Positions 28,899-44,604 of a DNA stretch of 64,000 nucleotides are shown here, in pieces. The notes beneath the pieces are model-generated. The model was given only the letters and a program-made list of their open reading frames with translations. It searched no databases and had not been told where the DNA came from. How positions within the stretch are numbered: position 1 is the first letter of the stretch; every line of letters begins with the position of its first letter. Location of the stretch: the NCBI GenBank assembly GCA_020849665.1, contig JADLFX010000031.1, positions 1 through 64,000 of the forward strand. Direction: 5' to 3'. Origin of the DNA: Planctomycetota bacterium. Lineage in GTDB: Bacteria > Planctomycetota > UBA1135 > UBA2386. Both the position numbers and the translations under genes were made by a program.

Positions 28899-30050
28899 AT
28901 GGCGCGCACCCTCCTCCTCCACCCCCTCGTGCTCGCCGGCGTCCTCGCCGCGCAGAAGCCCGAGACCGTGCAGACCCCAGGCATCGAATGGGCCAGGGAC
29001 CTCGACGCCGCGCTGGCGGCGTCCCGCGCCGACGGCCGGCCGGTGATCGCGTACTTCACCTTCGAGACCTGACACTGGTGCAAGGTCCTGGAGCGCGAGG
29101 CGTTCCCGGACGCCACGGTCGTGGCACTGGCGCGGCGCGCGCACTGGGTGTGGGTGGATCGCGACCACACCCCGGCGCTCCCCCGACGATTCTCGGTCTC
29201 GGCGTATCCCTCGTTGCTCTTCCTCGGCACCGAGGGCGAGAACATCCACCGCTTCGCGGGCTTCCTCAACACCACCAGCTTCCTCGCGCCGTTCCGCGAG
29301 GGGTTCGAGCGGTACGACCGCTACCGCGCGGGCGCGGCCTACGACGCGCCGCCGCCGTGGCCGGAGGCTCCGGTCGCGGGCCGCACCACGCGGGTGCTGC
29401 AGGTCCCCGGCGCGGATGCGCTGCGTGGGATCGCCTGGCACCGCGGCGAGCTGCTGCTCGCGAGCCTCGGCGAGCTGATCGCGCTCGACGGCACCGGCAG
29501 GGAAGTGCGCCGCGTGCCGCTCCCGGACCGGCCCAATGCGTTGGCCAGCGATGGCGAGCGCCTCTACGGGCTCCACTACGGCTGGACCGCCGGCAGGCCG
29601 ATCTACGAACTCGATCCGGCCACCGGCGCCGCGGTGCGCCAGATCGTCACGCGCGCGAACGCCGACAAGCAGGCGTTCTCCGCCACGGGGCTGGCCTGCC
29701 ACGGCGGCCGCCTGCACGTGCTGACCGTCTCCGGAGCCATCCACGTCGTGGATCCGGCCAGCGGCGTGGTCGAGCGCACCGTGACCACGAGGCTGCGCTA
29801 CGTCTCGGCCCTGGCGTTCGACGGCCGGAGCTACGTGGTGGGGGGGCGGGACAGCCTGAACCGCGTGGATCCGGGCACGGGCGAGGTCGTCGGCTGCGTG
29901 CCCCTGCTCGCACCGGTGCGCGGCATGACCTTCCACGCCGGCGCGCTCCACCTCTTCGAACAGGTGCAGATGGGGTTCGACCGCAACCACAGGCCCAAGC
30001 GGATCGCGCCAGACTCCACCCGGATCCACGTGGTGGAGTGGCAGCCCTGA
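28899..30050 (+). CDS. Exported thioredoxin-fold selenoprotein with C-terminal beta-propeller; TGA at 29070 read as Sec
   Basis: The frame runs from ATG 28899 to 30050 with one in-frame TGA at 29070-29072. Read as selenocysteine it gives 383 aa with U58 in FTFET-U-HWCK, that is a UxxC motif where relatives have CHWC. Residues 1-19 are a signal peptide. The thioredoxin fold covers about 30-140, with the cis-Pro strand VSAYPSLLFLG. The remaining 240 residues are blade-like beta repeats (HRGELLLASLGELIALDG; YELDPATGAAVRQI; HVVDPASGVVERTV), probably a six- or seven-bladed propeller. A SECIS-like hairpin follows the TGA at 29085-29111. Standard translation would give a 57-aa fragment. It sits in an operon with 30095-31438. 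Likely a periplasmic thiol-disulfide oxidoreductase. Confidence 0.82.
29085..29111 (+). promoter_or_regulatory. Bacterial SECIS-like hairpin (first selenoprotein)
   Basis: GTCC pairs with GGAC, then a single U/C mismatch, then GGAGCGC pairs with GCGTTCC (one G-U pair), closing a 3-nt loop GAG. That is 11 base pairs. The loop starts 24 nt after the TGA and has G as its first base, both within the usual bacterial SECIS limits (loop about 16-37 nt from UGA, G among the first two loop bases). Confidence 0.7.
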
Positions 30051-30094: not shown

Positions 30095-31438
30095 ATGCGT
30101 CCCCGCGCACTGGCCGCCCTCGCGCTCCTCTCCGTCGGCCTGCCGCCCGCCGGCGACACGCCGCCGCCCGGCCCGCCCTGGCAGCTCACCTATGCCGAGG
30201 CGCGGCAGCTCGCGCTGCGCAAGGGTCAGCCGGTGTTCGTGTACTTCACGAAGACCTATTGACCCGCGTGCGTGCCCCTGGAGCAGCAGTTGCTGCCCGA
30301 CCCCACCCTGAAGCCCTGGTACGACCGCGTGGTCTGGCTCTTCGTCACCCGCAACTTCAAGGGTGACGGCGGCGACCTGGAGGCGCTGCGCACCCACGAC
30401 CGGTTCGGCGTCTCGTCCTGGCCGCAGATGCTGGTGTTCGATCCCTCCGACGACCGGGTCCTCGTGGAGCCGCCGCGCGACCGCAAGGGCTTCGAGCGGG
30501 CGTTCGAGCAGGCCGTGGCCGCGCACCGCGGCAAGCCGGACGCCGGAGCGGAGCGCGCCGCCGCGGTGGTCGCGGAGGCCAAGGCGCTGCTGGGCAGGCA
30601 GAAGTTGGCCGCCGCGCGCGACCTGCTGGAGCCGGTCGCCCGCGAGGAGGACCGGGCGGGTGTGTGGCTGGAGGCGCGCGCGCTGATGAACTCGTGGGCC
30701 GGCGCGCCGGAGCCGTCCCTGCCGGCACTGCTCGAGGACCCCGATCCGCGCGTGGTGGCGATCGCGTTGGAACGGGCCGCGGCGCAGCCGCAGCTGGAAG
30801 CGAAGCTCCTGGCGCGCGCCGGGGCGCTGCTCGGCGACCCCGCCGCCGACCTCGTGGTGCGCATCCGTGCGCTGCGGCTCGTGGCGAAGGCCACGCCCGA
30901 GGCGGTCGTCGACCGCGCCGCGGAGCTGCTGAAGGTCGCCAACGATCCGTTCCGCTACGAGGTCCTCGACCTCCTGGCGCGCCACCCGCGCCCGGCGCTG
31001 GGCCCGGCCCTGGCGGTGCTCTTCCGCGACGCGGGGGAGGCGGTGCCGTCGCGGAACCCGAACGTGCTGCGCATGCGGACCGCCGCCTGCCTGGCGGAGT
31101 CTGGCGGCACCGAGGCGATCGACGCGCTCGCGCCCCTCGTGCGCACCGCCGACTGGCGCAACGGCACCACCAAGGTCTCGCTCCAGGCCCTGGCCGGGAT
31201 CGCGCGCCGCCTGCCCGCGGAGCGGGACCGGATCGCGGCCCTGCTCCTGGACGCGTTCCCCAGGCCGGTTCCCGCCGAGCCCGCCAACCAGGCGCGGGCC
31301 AGCCTGGCGCTCGCCGCCAGCGTGCGGGAGGCGCTCGCGGCCGCGCGGCCACAGGCGCCCCTGCCCGCCCTGCCCAAGGCGTGGGACGAGGCGGCGCGCA
31401 CGCAGTGGCTCGCCGAGGTGCGCGCGGCGGCGCGGTGA
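30095..31438 (+). CDS. Exported thioredoxin-fold selenoprotein with HEAT-like repeats; TGA at 30260 read as Sec
   Basis: ATG 30095 to 31438 with one in-frame TGA at 30260-30262. Read as selenocysteine it gives 447 aa with U56 in FTKTY-U-PACV, a UxxC motif. Residues 1-20 are a signal peptide (ALAALALLSVGLPPAG). The thioredoxin-like fold covers about 30-150, with the cis-Pro segment GVSSWPQMLVFD. Residues about 165-447 are paired helices of HEAT type (DPDPRVVAIALERAAAQ; VVRIRALRLVAKATPEAVV). A SECIS-like hairpin lies at 30279-30299. It is the second gene of the pair (44 bp gap) and ends 19 bp before a convergent gene. Probably a periplasmic redox enzyme on an adaptor scaffold. Confidence 0.82.
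30279..30299 (+). promoter_or_regulatory. Bacterial SECIS-like hairpin (second selenoprotein)
   Basis: TGG plus GCAGC (with a single bulged A between them) pairs with GCTGC plus CCG, closing the loop AGTT. That is eight pairs, one of them U-G. The loop starts 25 nt after the TGA and has G as its second base. Distance and loop G match the first hairpin almost exactly. Confidence 0.55.
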
Positions 31439-33472: not shown

Positions 33473-35459
33473 CCCGGTTCCCGCCGTCGCGTCCGCCGGG
33501 GGCGCGCTCGCCGGGCGGCGTGCGTTCGCCGGGCTGGCCGCGCTCGCCTCCGGGCCCGCCGCCCGGCCGCTGCCCGCCGCGCATCATGCTCGACATCATC
33601 TCCTGCATCTTCGCGCTCAGCTCCGGGTCCTCGGCGATCGCGGTGCGGAACTCCTCGGAGCGCATGAAGGCGCGGTCCTGCTCCAGCTTGGCGGCCAGGT
33701 CGGGCCGCTTCTCCTTGAGCAGGGCCTGGAACTCCTGCATCGCAGGGCTCGTGCGCCGGGGTCCGCCCGGGCCGCCGCCGGGCCCGCGGTTGGGCCGGGA
33801 CTCGGCCGCCCCCTCGCGCGGCACGCCGTTGGCTCCCGCGGGGTAGGCCGCGGCGTTGGCCTCGGCCACGGGAGCGCGCGGCGCGGCCGTGCCCTCGTTC
33901 TGCACCTTCGCCGCCGGCTGCGCATACTTGGGCGCCTGCACGCCGGGCGGCGTCGAGAGGTACACCACGTCGCCGGCCGCCACGCCCTTGATGATCTGCA
34001 CGAAGGTGTTGTCGGCGAGGCCGAGCGAGACCTGACGCGCCTGCGGGCCGGCCGGCGTGTCCACCCACAGGTATTGGACCAGGCCGTCGCGCTCCACGGC
34101 GGTGATCGGCACCTTCAGGGCCCCGGGCAGCTCGGCGACGATGATGTCGACGCGCGCCGACATGCTGGGCTTCAGGACCGTGTTCATGCCGTCGATCTCC
34201 ACCTCGGTCTGGAACACCTTCAGGTCGGGATTGCCAAAGCGCGAGGCGGAGTCGGCGAGCGGGGCCACGCGCCGCACGGTCCCGGTGAACAGGGACTCGG
34301 GGCCGAGCGCGTCGACGCGGACCTCGGCGCGCAGACCCGGCTTGACCCGGTCCACCGCGGACTCGTGCACCTTCAGCGTGGCGATCATCCGGCTCACGTC
34401 GGGCAGGATGATCAGCGTCTGGCGCTCGCGCACCTGGGCGCCCTCGGTGACGTACTCCTGGCGCCGGCCGCCCTCGCCCTGCGGCGCGTAGACCACAAGT
34501 CCGTCGGTGGGGGCGGTGATCAGGCAGTTCTTGACCTGCTTCTCGAGGTTGTCGAGCCGCTCCTTGGCAAGATTGAACTCGGCCTCGCGGCTCTTCTTGT
34601 CGGCCAGCACCTGCGCGAGCTTGGCCTCGCCGCGCGCGCGCACCCGCTCCAGCTCGAGCCGCGCGTCGTCCAGCTTCTGCTTGAGCTCCTCGCGGGACTT
34701 GACGTGCGTGAAGTTGACCAGCAGGTCGAGCTTGTTCTTGGCCAGCTTCACCGCCTCCTTGCGCCGCTCCAGGTTGAGGCGGTCGCCGTCGAGCTCGTTC
34801 TTGGTGATGAAGCCCTTGTCGGCGAGCTTCTGGCTCCACTGGAACTTGTCGATCGCCAGCGCGAGCTCCGACTCGGCCAGCTGGATGTCGGAGGTGGCGG
34901 CCACGGTCTGCTGCTCCTCCTCGCCCATCTCCCGCGTCCCGTCATCCCGCTTCTTGCCCAGGAACTTGTCGAGGTCGAGCTGGGCGAAGAGCACCTGGTT
35001 CTCGGCTTCCTTCACGTCGGCCGCGAACTGCTTGAGCTGGATCTCGTACTCCTTGGTGGCGGTGACCAGCTGCGACTCGGCGCGCGCGACGTCGATTTCC
35101 TGCTTCGCCTTGCGCTCGACGAGGGCCGAGGAGTCCAGCTCGACCAGCTTCTCGCCGGCCTTCACCTCGCGGCCCTCGGGGATGAGGAAGATGACCGTGT
35201 TGTTGCCCTCCACCTCCGAGCGCACGCGGGTCTCGCGGAACGCCTGGATCTCCGCGGCCTGGCTGACCCGGATCTGCATGTCGCCGCGCTCGACCGTGAA
35301 CTTGTCGGCCGGCCGGTCGCTGCTGCCCGACACCTGCTGGGAACAGGCCGCGGCCAGCAGGCCCAGGCCCACCAGGGCGGTGGCGAGGGTTGCCGGGGCG
35401 GTCCGCACCCGGTCGGGGATGCGTGCGCGGCGCAGCGGGGCGTTGGGGCTGTGAGTCAT
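33462..35459 (-). CDS. MacA/HlyD-family membrane-fusion lipoprotein with long C-terminal tail
   Basis: A 665-aa adaptor, longer than the usual 370-420 aa. The lipobox is LLAAAC, so it is lipid-anchored. Lipoyl-like halves (IFLIPEGREVKAGEKLVELD; CLITAPTDGLVVYAPQ) flank a long coiled-coil hairpin (about 100-300, rich in Lys/Glu/Gln). Beta-barrel segments follow (VRVDALGPESLFTGTVRRV). After about residue 525 comes an extra tail: a helical part (EFQALLKEKRPDLAAKLEQD) and then Gly/Pro/Arg/Glu low complexity. It bridges the inner-membrane pump and the TolC-like channel. Confidence 0.88.
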   Translation of the reverse strand: MTHSPNAPLRRARIPDRVRTAPATLATALVGLGLLAAACSQQVSGSSDRPADKFTVERGDMQIRVSQAAEIQAFRETRVRSEVEGNNTVIFLIPEGREVKAGEKLVELDSSALVERKAKQEIDVARAESQLVTATKEYEIQLKQFAADVKEAENQVLFAQLDLDKFLGKKRDDGTREMGEEEQQTVAATSDIQLAESELALAIDKFQWSQKLADKGFITKNELDGDRLNLERRKEAVKLAKNKLDLLVNFTHVKSREELKQKLDDARLELERVRARGEAKLAQVLADKKSREAEFNLAKERLDNLEKQVKNCLITAPTDGLVVYAPQGEGGRRQEYVTEGAQVRERQTLIILPDVSRMIATLKVHESAVDRVKPGLRAEVRVDALGPESLFTGTVRRVAPLADSASRFGNPDLKVFQTEVEIDGMNTVLKPSMSARVDIIVAELPGALKVPITAVERDGLVQYLWVDTPAGPQARQVSLGLADNTFVQIIKGVAAGDVVYLSTPPGVQAPKYAQPAAKVQNEGTAAPRAPVAEANAAAYPAGANGVPREGAAESRPNRGPGGGPGGPRRTSPAMQEFQALLKEKRPDLAAKLEQDRAFMRSEEFRTAIAEDPELSAKMQEMMSSMMRGGQRPGGGPGGERGQPGERTPPGERAPGGRDGGNRDGK

Positions 35460-35481
35460 GAGTGGTTCCGTGATCTGGGTT

Positions 35482-37263
35482 CTACCGCACGTCCGGCCTG
35501 CCCGGCGATTCCCCCGGGACGGCGGCCAGGTCGTCAGGCGCCGGAGCCGGTCCGGTTCCGGGCCGCACGGGCGATCCCATCGCAGCGCGAGGTTCGGGAC
35601 CGCGGGCCAGCGGGGATCGCTGGTCCGCGCCCGCCGGAGTGCCGTGCCGGGCCAGCTCCGGCCGCGGTCCCGTCGGGATCGGCAGGCCGGGGTCGTACCG
35701 CAGCCCCTTGGGCTCGAGCACGAGGCCCTCGAGGTCGCGCAGCAGGTTCAGCCGCGCCACGGCGTGATCGATCAGTGCCCCGGTGAGCTGGAGCTGGGAC
35801 TGCAGCAGCGACTCCTGCGCGTCGAGGAGGTCCAGGGCGGTGGAGCGGCCGGCGGCGTAGAGGTCGCGCGTGCTCTCCACGCGGCGCTCGGAGAGGATCA
35901 GCGCGCGGCTCTGGATCTCGTAGCTCGCCGCGGTCCGGCGGATGTTGCGCAGGGCCTCGCGCACCTCCTGCTTGATGGTGTCCTCGAGCTGTTCGCGCGA
36001 ACGGATCGCCACGTCCATGTCGATCAGCGCGGCGCGGTAGGCGTTGCGCTGCGGCAGGCGGTCGATCGCCAGGTCGATCTGGAAGCCGGCCGACCAGTTC
36101 ACCTTGCTCCAGTCGAAGCGGAACGCCTTGTCGCGATCGGTGGGCACGTCGGCGGCCGCGACCAGATCGAGGGACGACTCCAGCGCGTCCTCGGCGACCA
36201 GGATGCCGCGCCCGGCGTCCTCGACCTCGTCCACGACGTTGCGGTAGTCGAAGCGGCGCAGCAGCGCCAGCTCGATCGCCTTAGGCTCCTCCAGCGCGAT
36301 CAGCGGGGCGCCATCGGCGCGCAGGTGCTCGAGCTCGCGGATGTCGAGCGTGAGCTGCGCATCGGTGGGCAGTCCCAGGAGCACGCGGAAGCGGTCCAGC
36401 GTGCTCTCCAGCTGGGCGCGTGCGGTGACCAGGCGGTCGTTGGCCGAGAGCTCGTCCTGGCGGGCGCGGTCCAGATCCACGCTGGTGCGACGCCCCGCCT
36501 CGGCCAGGGCCTCGGTCTGCTCGCGGTTCTGCCGCAGGTTGACGGCGTTGGCCTCCTCGTTGCGCAGGTTGTCCATCTGCTCGAGCACCCGGTAGTACTC
36601 GGTCACCACCCGCACGGCCTGCGTGGCGCGGAAGCGCTCGTAGTCGCGCACCTGGTAGATCACGTTGCGCTCGGCCTGGGTGAGCGGCTCGCGGGCCACG
36701 GCCTTGCCGGCACCGGCGAGCAGGGGCTGGGTGATCGAGAGCGAGAGCAGCGAGCTCGGGTCCCAGCCGTTGGCCCCGGACACCAGGTTCTTCAGCCAGT
36801 TGTTCACGAAGCCGACGACGATGTTGGCCCCGGACTCGGTGTTGCGGGAGGCGCGCAGCTGGTTGCGCAGGGAGAGCACGGCCTCGTCATCGCCGACGCC
36901 GGTGACCTCCTCGGTGCCGGTGAAGGACCAGCGGGTGCTGAAGTTCCACTCCTGCTGGGTGAGTGCCAGACCCACCAGATAGAGCTGTTCCTTCTGGCGC
37001 TGGAACTCGCGGCTGTTCTCCGCGGCGATGTCGAGGGCCTGGGCGATCGTGACCACCATCGGCGTGCTGGCGGCCAGGATGCGCTTGCGCAGGGTGTCGA
37101 CGGGCCGTTCCAGGCGTTCCACCCGGCTCTCCCCGGTCACGCTGCGGCTGACGTTCTCCAGGAGGCCGTAGACCTGCTGGTCGGCGTCGTCCTTGTAGTC
37201 GGAGGGCGAGCAGCCGAGGAGCAGGGCGGAAGCGGGGAGGGGGAGGAGCAGGCGGCGGAACAA
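35482..37263 (-). CDS. TolC-like outer-membrane efflux lipoprotein
   Basis: A 593-aa outer-membrane channel protein. The lipobox is LLLGC at residues 14-18. Two TolC-type helical/barrel repeats are visible (QALDIAAENSREFQRQKEQL; LGLPTDAQLTLDIRELEHLR; RNAYRAALIDMDVAIRSREQ), with alternation of long coiled-coil helices and short beta strands. The last 60 residues are Pro/Arg-rich. The start is TTG at 37263, needed to include the signal and lipobox. It is the first gene of the efflux operon, 22 bp before the adaptor gene. Confidence 0.88.
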   Translation of the reverse strand: MFRRLLLPLPASALLLGCSPSDYKDDADQQVYGLLENVSRSVTGESRVERLERPVDTLRKRILAASTPMVVTIAQALDIAAENSREFQRQKEQLYLVGLALTQQEWNFSTRWSFTGTEEVTGVGDDEAVLSLRNQLRASRNTESGANIVVGFVNNWLKNLVSGANGWDPSSLLSLSITQPLLAGAGKAVAREPLTQAERNVIYQVRDYERFRATQAVRVVTEYYRVLEQMDNLRNEEANAVNLRQNREQTEALAEAGRRTSVDLDRARQDELSANDRLVTARAQLESTLDRFRVLLGLPTDAQLTLDIRELEHLRADGAPLIALEEPKAIELALLRRFDYRNVVDEVEDAGRGILVAEDALESSLDLVAAADVPTDRDKAFRFDWSKVNWSAGFQIDLAIDRLPQRNAYRAALIDMDVAIRSREQLEDTIKQEVREALRNIRRTAASYEIQSRALILSERRVESTRDLYAAGRSTALDLLDAQESLLQSQLQLTGALIDHAVARLNLLRDLEGLVLEPKGLRYDPGLPIPTGPRPELARHGTPAGADQRSPLARGPEPRAAMGSPVRPGTGPAPAPDDLAAVPGESPGRPDVR

Positions 37264-37390
37264 GGTCGATCCTGGGCAGCGCTACGCGGAGCTGTAGATA
37301 CGCCCAGGAGGCGGCACCGACGAACCGTTTTTCGCCGGCGGGGCTTGCGGCTATCCTTCCGGCCCTCACGGCGGTTCAAGGCGGGGGCCA

Positions 37391-38032
37391 TTGGCTACGG
37401 TACTGATCACGGCAGGGCCGACCCGGGAGCACCTCGACGAGGTGCGGTTCCTGGCAAACGGCAGCAGCGGGCGCATGGGCTATGCCCTGGCGGCCGCGGC
37501 ACGGGATGCTGGACACCACGTGGTCCTGATCTCGGGGCCCACGGAGCTGACCCCGCCCGAGGGGGTGGATCTGGTCCGGGTGATCTCGGCCGAGGACCTG
37601 CTCCAGGCGGTCCTGAAGGCCCTGCCCCATGCCGACGCCGCCTTCGCGGTGGCGGCGGTCGCCGATTGGCGCCCGAAGGAGCGTCTGGCGGGCAAGCCGC
37701 CCAAGGCGGCCCGATCCCTGACCTTGGAGCTGGTGCCCACCCCGGACGTCCTGGCGGAGATGGGTCGGCGCAAGGAGGGCCGGGTCCTGGTCGGCTTCGC
37801 CCTGGAGAGCGGCACCGTGGACGAGGCTCTGGCCCGGGGCCGCGCCAAGCTGGAGGCCAAGAACCTGGACCTGATCGTCGTGAATCGCGTGGCCGCCATC
37901 GGCGCGGAGGAGACGGAGGCCTGGCTGGTGTTCGCCGACGGCCACGTCCGGACCCTCCCGCGCATGTCCAAGTCCGATCTGGCCGCGGTGATCGTGCGCG
38001 CCGCCCACGTGCCCGAGGGCAGGCATCGATGA
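37391..38032 (+). CDS. coaB: Stand-alone phosphopantothenate-cysteine ligase (CoaB)
   Basis: A 213-aa protein matching only the CoaB half of bifunctional CoaBC. The N-terminal motif is VLITAGPTREHLDEVRFLANGSSGRMGYA, with AAVADWRP in the active site and KNLDLIVVNRV near the C-terminus. It joins cysteine to 4'-phosphopantothenate with a nucleotide triphosphate, in coenzyme A synthesis. No CoaC decarboxylase is fused or adjacent, so that gene must be elsewhere. The start is TTG at 37391 because no ATG lies before the conserved strand. It is followed 10 bp later by ftsK. Confidence 0.9.
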   Translation: MATVLITAGPTREHLDEVRFLANGSSGRMGYALAAAARDAGHHVVLISGPTELTPPEGVDLVRVISAEDLLQAVLKALPHADAAFAVAAVADWRPKERLAGKPPKAARSLTLELVPTPDVLAEMGRRKEGRVLVGFALESGTVDEALARGRAKLEAKNLDLIVVNRVAAIGAEETEAWLVFADGHVRTLPRMSKSDLAAVIVRAAHVPEGRHR

Positions 38033-38042
38033 GGCGGGACCC

Positions 38043-40841
38043 ATGAGCCGGAAGCCCGGAGCCAGCGTCGCCGCCGTGCCGTGGAGCCAGCGTCTCTCGG
38101 AACGCGCCAAGGAGGCGCTCTCCCTGCTGCTGATCGCGTTCGCGCTCTTCTCCCTACTGTCGCTGGCGACCTTCCGCCTGCCGGACCCAGGGCTGCAGGC
38201 CATCCCGCGGGAGGCCTTCCAGAACCTCGGTGGCGCCGTGGGCTACCACATCGCCCACGGGATGACGTTCCTCTTCGGGCAGGCGGCGTACCTCGTGTTC
38301 GCCTTCCTCCTGGTGCACGCGGTGCTGCTCTTCCTGCGCCACGACGTGCCCAAGGTGGTGCACAAGGCCCTCGGCGTGCTGGTGTTCACGGTCGTGGCGG
38401 CCCTGCTCCTGGCCGGCCCGGACGGCCGGGCGGGGATCGGCGAGCCGACGCCGTACGGCGCCGGGGGACGCTTCGGCGCCAACCTCTCGCCGCGCCTCTA
38501 CGAGGCGTTCGGCGGCTCCGGGCGGATCCTGCTCCTGGTGTTCGGGGGGCTGGTGGCCTTCCTGATCGCCACCGACTTCCTCTTCCTGGCGCTGCTGCGC
38601 CAGGGCGCCGAGCGGCTGGGGCGAGCGGTGGACCGGATCCGGCCCGACCCCGCGGCGGCGGCCACCGCAGGCGGGTCTGCCGGCGCCGAGGTACTGGACG
38701 CCGGCGCCGCGGACCTGCTCGGCCCGCGTTCCACGCCCCGGCGGCGGCGCGCGAGCCGGGTCCCGGACCCGGCCGAGGAAGCGGAGCCAGGGGAACCGGA
38801 ACCGGAGGCTGCCTACGAGGACGCCCGCCCCGGCGGCGGCGAGGCGGACGTGGACGACCGGGCGGGCGCCGGGCTGGTGATCCATGACTCGCGCCCGCCG
38901 CAACCGGCACGTGCCGTGGGCCCGTCCCGACCGGAGCCCGAGCCTGGGTCCGGACCCGTCGCCGGGGCTGCGGCGGGGGCTGCGGAGCCGCCGGCAGCCG
39001 CCCCCGAGTCTCCGGCCGAGCCGGCCGAGCCTGCCGAGCCGGCCCCGGACCCGGACGCGGCCAAGGAGGCCGGCGCTGCCCCGGCCGAGGAGCGCCCGGC
39101 CGCGCGCAGGCCGCGCATCAAGGTGGAGCGGGCGCGCCGGGTGCGGCGCGGCCAGCAGAGTCTGCCGTTCCCGGCCGCCTATCCGTTCCCGCCCATCGAT
39201 CTCTTCCATCAGGCCGCGCACCAGCGCGACGAGGATCTGCGCACCGCGATCCAGGCCAATGCCGACGCGATCGAGCGCCGCCTTGGATCGTTCAAGATCG
39301 AGGCCAAGGTCGTGAGCGTGTCGCCAGGCCCGGCCGTGACCCAGTACGAGGTGCGGCTCGGCGAGGGCATCAAGGTGTCGCGCGTCGTGAGCTTCGAGGC
39401 CGACCTCGCCGCCGCGCTCAAGGCCACGTCGGTGCGCGTCGTGGCCCCGATCCCGGGCAAGGACACGGTGGGCGTGGAGGTGCCCAACCAGCGCCGCCAG
39501 ATGGTCGTGATGCGCGAGCTCCTGGAGCTCCACGGGCGCGCCGAGGACCTGGCCCTGCCGCTCTTCCTGGGGCGCGACGTCGCCGGCAAGCCGATCGTCG
39601 AAGACCTCACCAAGATGCCCCACATCCTGATCGCGGGCACGACCGGGTCGGGCAAGTCGGTGTGCATCAACACGATCCTGCTCTCGCTCCTGATGACCCG
39701 CACGCCGGAGCAGGTGCGGCTCATCCTGATCGACCCGAAGATGGTCGAGCTGCAGTCGTTCCGGGCCGTGCCGCACCTGGCCTGCGACGTGGTCACCAAC
39801 ATGAAGAAGGCGCCCACGGTCCTGCAGTGGGCGGTCGACGAGATGGAGCGGCGCTACGAGCTCTTCTCGCGTGTGGGGGTCAACCACATCACGCTCTTCA
39901 ACCGGCTCGGCCGCGGGGAGCTGGAGAAGCGCCTGCAGACGCCCGTGGACGAGGGCGCCGAACGGATCCCCTACATGGTCGTGGTGATCGACGAGCTGGC
40001 CGATCTGGTCGCGGTGGCGCAGAACGAGGTCGAGGAGTCCATCCAGCGCCTGGCGCAGAAATCGCGCGCGGTGGGCATCCACGTGATCCTCGCCACGCAG
40101 CGGCCGAGCACCGACGTGATCACCGGGGTGATCAAGGCCAACCTGCCCGCGCAGATCGCGTTCCGCGTGAGCCGCAAGATCGACTCGCGCGTGATCCTCG
40201 ACGCCAACGGCGCCGAGGTCCTGCTCGGCCACGGCGACATGCTCTACAACCAGCCGGGCGGCAAGGGCATCGTGCGCGCGCAGGGCACCTACGTGGCGGA
40301 GGACGAGATCGACGCCGTCGTGAAGTACCTGGAGATGAAGGGGCAGACCCCGAGCTTCATCCCCGAACTGGCCCGCCCCGAGAAATCGGTCGGCCGCCGG
40401 CCCCAGGAGAAGGACGACCTGTACGAGAAGGCGGTCGAGGTCGTGCTCGGGCAGCAGCGCGGCTCGGCCACGCTCCTGCAGCGGGCCCTGGCGATCGGCT
40501 ACACGCGGGCCACCAGGCTGCTGGAGCTCATGGAGGAGGACGGGCTGGTCGGTGGCTTCCAGGGTTCGAAGTCGCGCGAGGTCCTGATGACCCTGGAGGA
40601 CTGGCGGATCCGGGAGGAGTCGATCCGCGACGAGTTGGACCGCCTGGAGCAGGAGGGGGCGGAGGACGGTGCGGTCGAGGCTGAAGAGGACGCGGACGCG
40701 GACTTGGGCGGGGCCGCAGCCGGCGAGTCCGGGTCGTCCCAAGGCGCAGCCGGCGAGGACGCCGGATCGGCATCCGACCCAGGAGCCGTCAGGCCGTCCG
40801 ATCCCGAGGCGACGCAGGAGCACGAGGCTCAGGGTCCCTGA
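38043..40841 (+). CDS. ftsK: FtsK/SpoIIIE DNA translocase
   Basis: A 932-aa DNA translocase. The N-terminus has four membrane helices (about 20-195), the last containing LVAFLIATDFLFLALL. A Pro/Ala/Glu-rich linker follows to about 350. The alpha and RecA-like beta motor has Walker A GTTGSGKS at residues 532-539 and Walker B MVVVIDELADL near 645. A gamma winged-helix domain (about 795-865) with SATLLQRALAIGYTRATRLL reads KOPS polarity sites. It pumps chromosome termini through the division plane and activates XerCD. It is followed by a related gene without motor. Confidence 0.95.
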   Translation: MSRKPGASVAAVPWSQRLSERAKEALSLLLIAFALFSLLSLATFRLPDPGLQAIPREAFQNLGGAVGYHIAHGMTFLFGQAAYLVFAFLLVHAVLLFLRHDVPKVVHKALGVLVFTVVAALLLAGPDGRAGIGEPTPYGAGGRFGANLSPRLYEAFGGSGRILLLVFGGLVAFLIATDFLFLALLRQGAERLGRAVDRIRPDPAAAATAGGSAGAEVLDAGAADLLGPRSTPRRRRASRVPDPAEEAEPGEPEPEAAYEDARPGGGEADVDDRAGAGLVIHDSRPPQPARAVGPSRPEPEPGSGPVAGAAAGAAEPPAAAPESPAEPAEPAEPAPDPDAAKEAGAAPAEERPAARRPRIKVERARRVRRGQQSLPFPAAYPFPPIDLFHQAAHQRDEDLRTAIQANADAIERRLGSFKIEAKVVSVSPGPAVTQYEVRLGEGIKVSRVVSFEADLAAALKATSVRVVAPIPGKDTVGVEVPNQRRQMVVMRELLELHGRAEDLALPLFLGRDVAGKPIVEDLTKMPHILIAGTTGSGKSVCINTILLSLLMTRTPEQVRLILIDPKMVELQSFRAVPHLACDVVTNMKKAPTVLQWAVDEMERRYELFSRVGVNHITLFNRLGRGELEKRLQTPVDEGAERIPYMVVVIDELADLVAVAQNEVEESIQRLAQKSRAVGIHVILATQRPSTDVITGVIKANLPAQIAFRVSRKIDSRVILDANGAEVLLGHGDMLYNQPGGKGIVRAQGTYVAEDEIDAVVKYLEMKGQTPSFIPELARPEKSVGRRPQEKDDLYEKAVEVVLGQQRGSATLLQRALAIGYTRATRLLELMEEDGLVGGFQGSKSREVLMTLEDWRIREESIRDELDRLEQEGAEDGAVEAEEDADADLGGAAAGESGSSQGAAGEDAGSASDPGAVRPSDPEATQEHEAQGP

Positions 40842-43112: not shown

Positions 43113-44462
43113 GTGGACACGCAACCGTCGATCGAAGAACGCGGCGTACCGCGCAATCTCGAGGCCGAACGCTCGGTGTTGGGCGCGTTGCTGCTCCATT
43201 GCGACGCGGTCAACGACGTCGTCCAGTTCCTGAAGCCGGAGGACTTCTACCTGCCGGCGCACCAGGTCATCTACCGGGCGATCCTCGACCGCCACGACCG
43301 CAAGACCCTCGCCGACGTCATCACGGTCGAGGAGGAGCTGGCCGGCAAGGGGCTGCTGGAGGAGGCCGGGGGACGGGACCGCCTCCTCGACCTGGCCGGA
43401 TCGGTGGTCTCGGCCGCGGCGGTGCAGCAGCACGCGGAGATCGTCCGCGAGAAGGCGATCCTGCGGCGCCTGCTCGAGACCTGCCTGGACCTGTCGCGGC
43501 TCGCCTACCAGGGTGGACAGGAGGCCCAGCCGCTGCTCGACGAGGCCGAGCAGCGCATCTTCGAGATCGCGCGCGTGGGCGTGCGCAGCGACGCCATGGA
43601 GATCTCGGCGATCCTGAACGAGACCTTCCAGCGGATCGAGATGATCCGCAGCCGCGAAGGCCGGCTCTCCGGCCTCGCCACGACGTACTACGACCTCGAC
43701 GACATGACCGCCGGCCTGCAGAAGGGCGAGCTGGTGATCCTCGCGGCGCGGCCGTCGATGGGGAAGACCTCGTTCGCCCTCAACATCTGCGAGCGCGTGG
43801 CCGGAGCCGGGAACGGCGTGCTCTTCTTCTCCCTGGAGATGTCCGCCCAGCAGGTCATCCAGAACATGCTCTGCTGCCGGGCGCAGATCGACAGCCAGAG
43901 CCTGCGCAAGGGCAAGATCACCGAGCAGCAGTATCGCCGCCTCCAGGAGGAAGCGGGGGTCCTCTACAACGCCCCGATCTTCGTCGACGACACCGCGGGC
44001 ATGACCGCGCAGATGATCCGGGCCAAGGCCAGACGCATCCTGCAGCGCCGCCCCCTCTCCCTGATCGTCATCGACTACCTGCAGCTGCTGAGCAGCGGCC
44101 GGCGCGAGGAGAGCCGCCAGCAGGAGATCGCCGGGATCAGCCGCGGCCTCAAGCAGCTGGCCCGCGAACTGTCCGTGCCGGTGGTGGCCCTGGCCCAGCT
44201 CAACCGCGAGGTGGAGGGCCGCGACGACCACCGCCCGCGCATGAGCGACCTGCGCGAGTCCGGCGCGATCGAGCAGGACGCCGACGTGATCATGCTCCTG
44301 CACCGGGAGGAGTACTACAAACGCACGGAGGAGAACGCCGGCCTGGCCCAGATCCTGATCGCCAAGCAGCGCAACGGCCCGACCGGCGACATCACCCTGC
44401 GCTTCTTCCGCGAATTCATGCGCTTCGAGAACTACCGGCGCGGCGCCGAGCCGATGACCTGA
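43113..44462 (+). CDS. dnaB: Replicative DNA helicase DnaB
   Basis: About 449 aa, the usual DnaB length. The N-terminal collar domain starts at RNLEAERSVLGALLLHCDA. The RecA-like C-terminal motor has Walker A RPSMGKTS near residue 215, Walker B LIVIDYLQLL, and the conserved NREVEGRDDHRPRMSDLRES and IEQDADVIMLLHR. There is no intein. The start is taken as GTG 43113 (or TTG 43110, one codon upstream), both a suitable distance from GGGAGG. It unwinds DNA at the replication fork. Its neighbours ftsK and bamA are unrelated housekeeping genes. Confidence 0.95.
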   Translation: MDTQPSIEERGVPRNLEAERSVLGALLLHCDAVNDVVQFLKPEDFYLPAHQVIYRAILDRHDRKTLADVITVEEELAGKGLLEEAGGRDRLLDLAGSVVSAAAVQQHAEIVREKAILRRLLETCLDLSRLAYQGGQEAQPLLDEAEQRIFEIARVGVRSDAMEISAILNETFQRIEMIRSREGRLSGLATTYYDLDDMTAGLQKGELVILAARPSMGKTSFALNICERVAGAGNGVLFFSLEMSAQQVIQNMLCCRAQIDSQSLRKGKITEQQYRRLQEEAGVLYNAPIFVDDTAGMTAQMIRAKARRILQRRPLSLIVIDYLQLLSSGRREESRQQEIAGISRGLKQLARELSVPVVALAQLNREVEGRDDHRPRMSDLRESGAIEQDADVIMLLHREEYYKRTEENAGLAQILIAKQRNGPTGDITLRFFREFMRFENYRRGAEPMT

Positions 44463-44604
44463 GCCGAGCGCCGCCGCCCCGCGCCCGCGGCGGCCGCGGG
44501 ACCCCGCGGGCCGGCAGCGCGGGGGGAGTGGCCGACGGCGTTCCGGCCGGCCACGCCGCGCTACCGCCGGGCCCGCCGCTCTGGTCTCATCTGCCGCCCC
44601 GACC

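Follow-up and report, generated by a model that had tools for sequence, protein, structure and literature searches.

DsbH (NF043050; PDB 2ju5) and the gamma domain of DsbD (PDB 1uc7 and 2fwe) share an exported or periplasmic reductase fold with Cys in the CxxC motif and no solenoid. A selenocysteine (Sec) containing "thiol:disulfide interchange protein" with the PF13098 domain and a UxxC motif has been catalogued (PMC13188914, Table 1), and the closest curated selenoprotein model, NF041199 (Trx7/PDZ (seleno)protein), describes a Thioredoxin_7-like domain that also carries Sec. The gene analysed here (30095–31438, + strand) is found in a 64-kb stretch of DNA from a planctomycetal genome, referred to as the window, and encodes a protein of 447 aa. 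Its predicted fold is like that of DsbH and DsbD gamma, but with Sec and a solenoid. It shares a thioredoxin-like domain and UxxC with the catalogue entry, which makes no mention of a HEAT solenoid, and it has such a solenoid where NF041199 has, by its name, a C-terminal PDZ domain. With a probability of about 0.85, we read it as an exported selenoprotein in which UGA is recoded via a bacterial SECIS element (bSECIS), and which would combine seleno thiol/disulfide exchange with client binding by HEAT/ARM repeats.

The gene model builds on read-through translation, Pfam, an AlphaFold model and 29 other homologues. The frame reads MRPRALAALALLSVGLPPAG...FVYFTKTY-U-PAC-VPLEQ...SSWPQ..., continues into the solenoid and ends with a TGA stop at 31436–31438. 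The hydrophobic N-terminal (residues 1 to about 20; 30095–30154) represents a putative Sec-type signal peptide, and a signal-like N-terminal is seen in all 14 full-length homologues (maximum 10-mer Kyte-Doolittle values of 2.2–3.3). It is followed by a Thioredoxin_7-like domain (residues 29–143; 30179–30523), defined by PF13899 and structure alignment, in which the in-frame TGA (30260–30262) gives U56 of the UPAC motif and the resolving Cys is C59 (30269–30271). W109-P110 (30419–30424) occupies the cis-Pro loop position. The rest of the protein (residues 150–446; 30542–31432) is an alpha-helical solenoid with TPR-like or extra helices and then HEAT/ARM repeats, modelled with pLDDT mostly above 90. 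The original prediction had listed a signal peptide, a TGA in UPAC, a cis-Pro strand and helical repeats, and all four were recovered by translation, Pfam, the homologues and AlphaFold. When all 64 kb were scanned, without regard to protein family, for TGA codons that lie three residues from a Cys and are flanked on either side by a GC pattern typical of coding sequence, just two sites emerged: 30260 (UPAC) and, in the gene upstream, 29070 (UHWC).

Homologues were collected from 151 genomes of the order, from a public genome collection (six records, five of them Planctomycetota or Pirellulaceae) and from 392 genomes of the phylum using a 14-sequence profile. This gave 30 distinct homologues that span the site, from many families of Planctomycetota: 29 have TGA and one has TGC (Cys). 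The usual motif of the family is UPHC, from which the UPAC of the window protein deviates. Purifying selection acts on both sides of the codon: dN/dS for the closest pair (L046 and L041) is about 0.20 after the TGA and 0.26 before it. The TGA could instead be a genuine stop or a base-calling error, and the gene a decaying one or an ordinary one with Cys, as the assemblies are MAG-like and the TGC of one homologue is a single base away from TGA. Yet the TGA is common to 29 independent assemblies, purifying selection is seen both before and after it and a covarying hairpin follows directly downstream. A pseudogene or sequencing error is refuted already by the conservation across genomes, and we regard its chances as negligible. 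The TGA at 30260–30262 is thus almost certainly decoded as Sec, as judged from the sequence comparisons, and the prediction of Sec at this codon was borne out by the 29 of 30 homologues, the hairpin, the Sec machinery and the selection past the TGA.

A Cys-containing orthologue had been sought as a check on the prediction, and one was found: L017, with the motif TKTYCPHC. This protein is nested in a supported clade that otherwise consists of Sec sequences, and its SECIS loop fits neither of the two registers described below. Its position within a Sec clade, together with the lost SECIS loop, points to Sec as the ancestral state there and to Cys as secondary. The genome of this homologue (G051) has SelB, while no tRNA-Sec was detected in it. 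We therefore make no claim of a Cys homologue in a genome without Sec decoding; it is possible that Sec is being lost in this genome. Both matches to the window protein in G051 (L017 and L074, on G051:C30) are without TGA.

The candidate bSECIS hairpin, GG(A)GCAGC-AGTT-GCTGC-CC, is located at 30280–30298 (+ strand) and has an MFE of -12.2 and a 4-nt apical loop (AGUU) at a spacing of 25 nt from the UGA. Published limits for bSECIS elements are a loop of 3–9 nt with G in the first two loop positions, a spacing of 16–37 nt and an MFE of at most -7.5 (PMC13188914), and the window hairpin falls within them. Its stability alone is not unusual for GC-rich DNA of this kind (single-sequence folding, z -0.29), and Rfam, searched with a low threshold, produced no useful match at this site. 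In the main register (21 sequences), 93.9% of the cells pair, and three of the seven pairs show changes on both sides. The covariation score was 0.267, compared with 0.092 for shuffled alignments (0 of 500 shuffles); slid structures scored no higher than 0.099. Among the 2,556 column pairs, columns 25 and 36 (GC, AU or CG) rank first in mutual information.

Selection on the protein alone is not sufficient to explain this pattern, because the third, synonymous base of the Leu +11 codon follows the first base of codon +8 (CAG-CTG, AAG-CTT and GAG-CTC, with L066 as the one exception), and because Leu +10 is the rare codon TTG in 22 rows; elsewhere in these genes TTG makes up 99 of 1029 Leu codons. 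One subclade (L015, L016 and L018–L020) has a second register, GGAGAGG-GGTCT-CCTCTCC, with a 5-nt loop and no bulged A, which from the alignment appears to be a natural switch in SECIS geometry inside one family. The covariation test is valid only within one register, and an all-pairs analysis over the mixed registers gave only noise.

The Sec machinery, on which the prediction depended, is complete in the source genome (5.24 Mb), with selA, selB, selC and selD all present: a tRNA-Sec with the anticodon UCA (75.4 bits), SelA (398.6 bits), the C-terminal domain of SelB, and SelD (360.7 bits). SelD has an in-frame TGA of its own, in the motif SCSGUAAK; this Sec-type SelD (L110; G000:C104:33580-34500, TGA at C104:33610) follows the selA match at a distance of about 120 bp. 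UGA is evidently decoded inside the gene, as would also be the case if it were reassigned genome-wide or read as Trp or Gly. However, TGA also terminates both this gene and the one upstream (31436–31438 and 30048–30050, respectively), the genome has the full Sec apparatus, and the only homologue without TGA has Cys, which fits Sec/Cys chemistry at a CxxC site. We consider a reassignment to be extremely improbable, and decoding as Sec is the reading kept below. Among the 392 Planctomycetota genomes, tRNA-Sec was detectable in 16 of the 21 that bear the family and in 212 of the 371 others, a difference in the expected direction that is not significant (one-sided p 0.065). The five family-bearing genomes without a detected tRNA-Sec are incomplete MAGs (completeness 70–88%).

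Pfam Thioredoxin_7 (PF13899) matches residues 29–117 of the window protein across the TGA (33.9 bits, gathering cut-off 27), while Thioredoxin_2 (PF13098) gives 26.5 bits against a cut-off of 27. A search of PDB sequences with the window protein gave no significant match. The AlphaFold model (pLDDT 90.2, pTM 0.87) places the thioredoxin fold at residues 25–147. The closest fold is the thioredoxin domain of an exported cytochrome-c-biogenesis protein (3f9u, Z 14.4), followed by DsbH (2ju5, VIA-align Z 14.2), and Foldseek gave a probability of 1.0 to DsbD gamma (1uc7, 2fwe). Residues 204–447 of the solenoid match armadillo-type repeats with a Z of about 12, a range that helical repeats can reach through their common arrangement alone. 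The HEAT_2 profile (PF13646) matches 13 of the 14 full-length homologues; the window protein itself is without a match, but its model is HEAT/ARM-like. It belongs to a clade of long forms with an extra helical segment (the window protein, L012, L041, L046 and L066). From these models we are confident in describing the protein as a predicted DsbH/DsbD-gamma-like thioredoxin domain joined to a HEAT/ARM solenoid.

According to the mechanism that we propose, the bSECIS just 3' of the UGA would recruit SelB and Sec-tRNA(Sec) so that the UGA at 30260–30262 is decoded as Sec, a step that is strongly supported by the sequence data. The protein would then be exported to the periplasm. Based on motif and fold, the Thioredoxin_7 domain would perform thiol/disulfide exchange, with Sec56 as the attacking selenolate and Cys59 as the resolving thiol. 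Sec/Cys 56, Cys 59 and W109-P110 are invariant among the 14 full-length homologues, and no further invariant Cys is present in their alignment. Recycling by another protein would therefore be needed, and most simply this might be a DsbD/CcdA-type membrane reductase, since the source genome encodes two membrane proteins of this type. The most likely role of the HEAT/ARM solenoid would be to bind specific clients or partners and to present them to the seleno-active site.

The direction of the exchange, reductase or isomerase versus oxidase, is uncertain: the UPHC dipeptide seen in most of the family matches the oxidase DsbA, whereas by fold the domain comes closest to DsbH and DsbD gamma. If the protein were a DsbA-type oxidase, a Sec-Cys selenosulfide would oxidise exported proteins and be re-oxidised by a quinone-linked partner. 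The UPHC of most family members corresponds to the CPHC of DsbA (PMC4460558) and the pKa of Sec is below that of Cys (PMC13188914), but the domain and fold are closest to DsbH, DsbD-gamma and Thioredoxin_7 proteins, a W (SWP) rather than the V of DsbA stands before the cis-Pro, and the window protein itself has PA and not PH. Such an oxidase is less likely than not in our view, though its probability is appreciable.

Many UxxC selenoproteins are uncharacterised, and reduction of peroxide or methionine sulfoxide does occur among selenoenzymes with a thioredoxin fold. These activities, in place of protein disulfide exchange, are improbable for the present protein, as none of the profile searches matched a Prx, Gpx or Msr domain. 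Protein thiol/disulfide exchange is the activity that we retain.

The upstream gene (28899–30050, + strand) encodes a separate selenoprotein with a signal peptide, a thioredoxin domain and a predicted beta-propeller. Its TGA at 29070–29072 gives U58 of the motif UHWC, and it ends with a TGA at 30048–30050. The original prediction saw the same arrangement in both neighbours. This holds for the thioredoxin part with its UxxC but not for the C-terminal, which in the upstream protein is predicted to be all-beta and propeller-like (pLDDT 76) rather than helical. The idea that the two carry different adaptor domains was supported, with a HEAT/ARM solenoid in one and a predicted beta-propeller in the other. 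The two genes are on the same strand, 44 bp apart and with no terminator-like site between them, which makes their co-transcription plausible here. The check for conservation of the pair, in contrast, was negative: none of 21 neighbourhoods of the HEAT family contains a homologue of the upstream gene, all other matches being the HEAT gene's own thioredoxin domain. Full-length homologues of the upstream gene with TGA at the same place occur in three genomes of the order (G003, G007 and G024; L090–L092), and in these the HEAT gene is matched at the level of the thioredoxin domain only. Among 22 loci no convincing recurrent neighbours were identified, the small clusters being partly ORFs antisense to the HEAT gene, and no conserved neighbour points to a client. 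Further along the window, just before ftsK, an ORF of 862 aa (35458–38046) is without a Pfam match; a tRNA-Arg(ccg) called inside it by ARAGORN (35520–35613) has no Rfam support and is probably spurious.

Standard gene callers stop at the UGA, so that the family would be recorded as short fragments and a headless HEAT protein. With 29 Sec members to one Cys member, it offers a clean case for asking how selenium benefits an exported redox enzyme. The two SECIS loop registers and the one homologue that has lost both Sec and the SECIS loop make the rules of recoding directly testable, rules that seem to be little studied in Planctomycetota.

Compared with the known systems, the window protein scores 16.8 bits against NF041199 (curated cut-off 300), in an alignment confined to the first 44 positions of the model, and it reaches the cut-off of no NCBIfam model; NF043050 (DsbH) gave no match at E ≤ 1. 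Sec proteins similar to NF041199 are present in the source genome and in related genomes. In the Trx7 proteins of the related genomes (RSYAxU-GPC) the Sec is shifted by two residues towards the C-terminal relative to KTYU-PHC. Elsewhere in the source genome, a Trx7-like selenoprotein (YAHUGPC) and a paralogue of the Cys type (FFDCGAA) adjoin each other, both on the - strand (L108, G000:C35:42994-43458 and 44053-44547). The upstream neighbour shares with the window protein an exported Thioredoxin_7/DsbH-like Sec domain and a C-terminal adaptor, but it has UHWC and a predicted beta-propeller where the window protein has UPAC and HEAT, and elsewhere its homologues were not found beside the HEAT family. 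HEAT, repeats, PF13899 and Planctomycetes are all absent from the 2026 catalogue of prokaryotic selenoproteins (PMC13188914), and a search of the open-access literature, a scope that leaves aside subscription journals and database annotations, gave no description of a Trx-HEAT selenoprotein family. Tentatively, and at somewhat less than even odds, the 29 Sec and one Cys proteins might be an undescribed Sec-dominated family, with Sec as the ancestral state, that forms one module of an exported seleno-redox toolkit of Planctomycetota, in which Sec cores of the Trx_7 type are combined with different protein-binding adaptors (HEAT/ARM, beta-propeller and PDZ), each with clients of its own. Thioredoxin-like selenoproteins with UxxC were already known; what appears to be new is the fusion to HEAT repeats, the near-total use of Sec and the SECIS described here.
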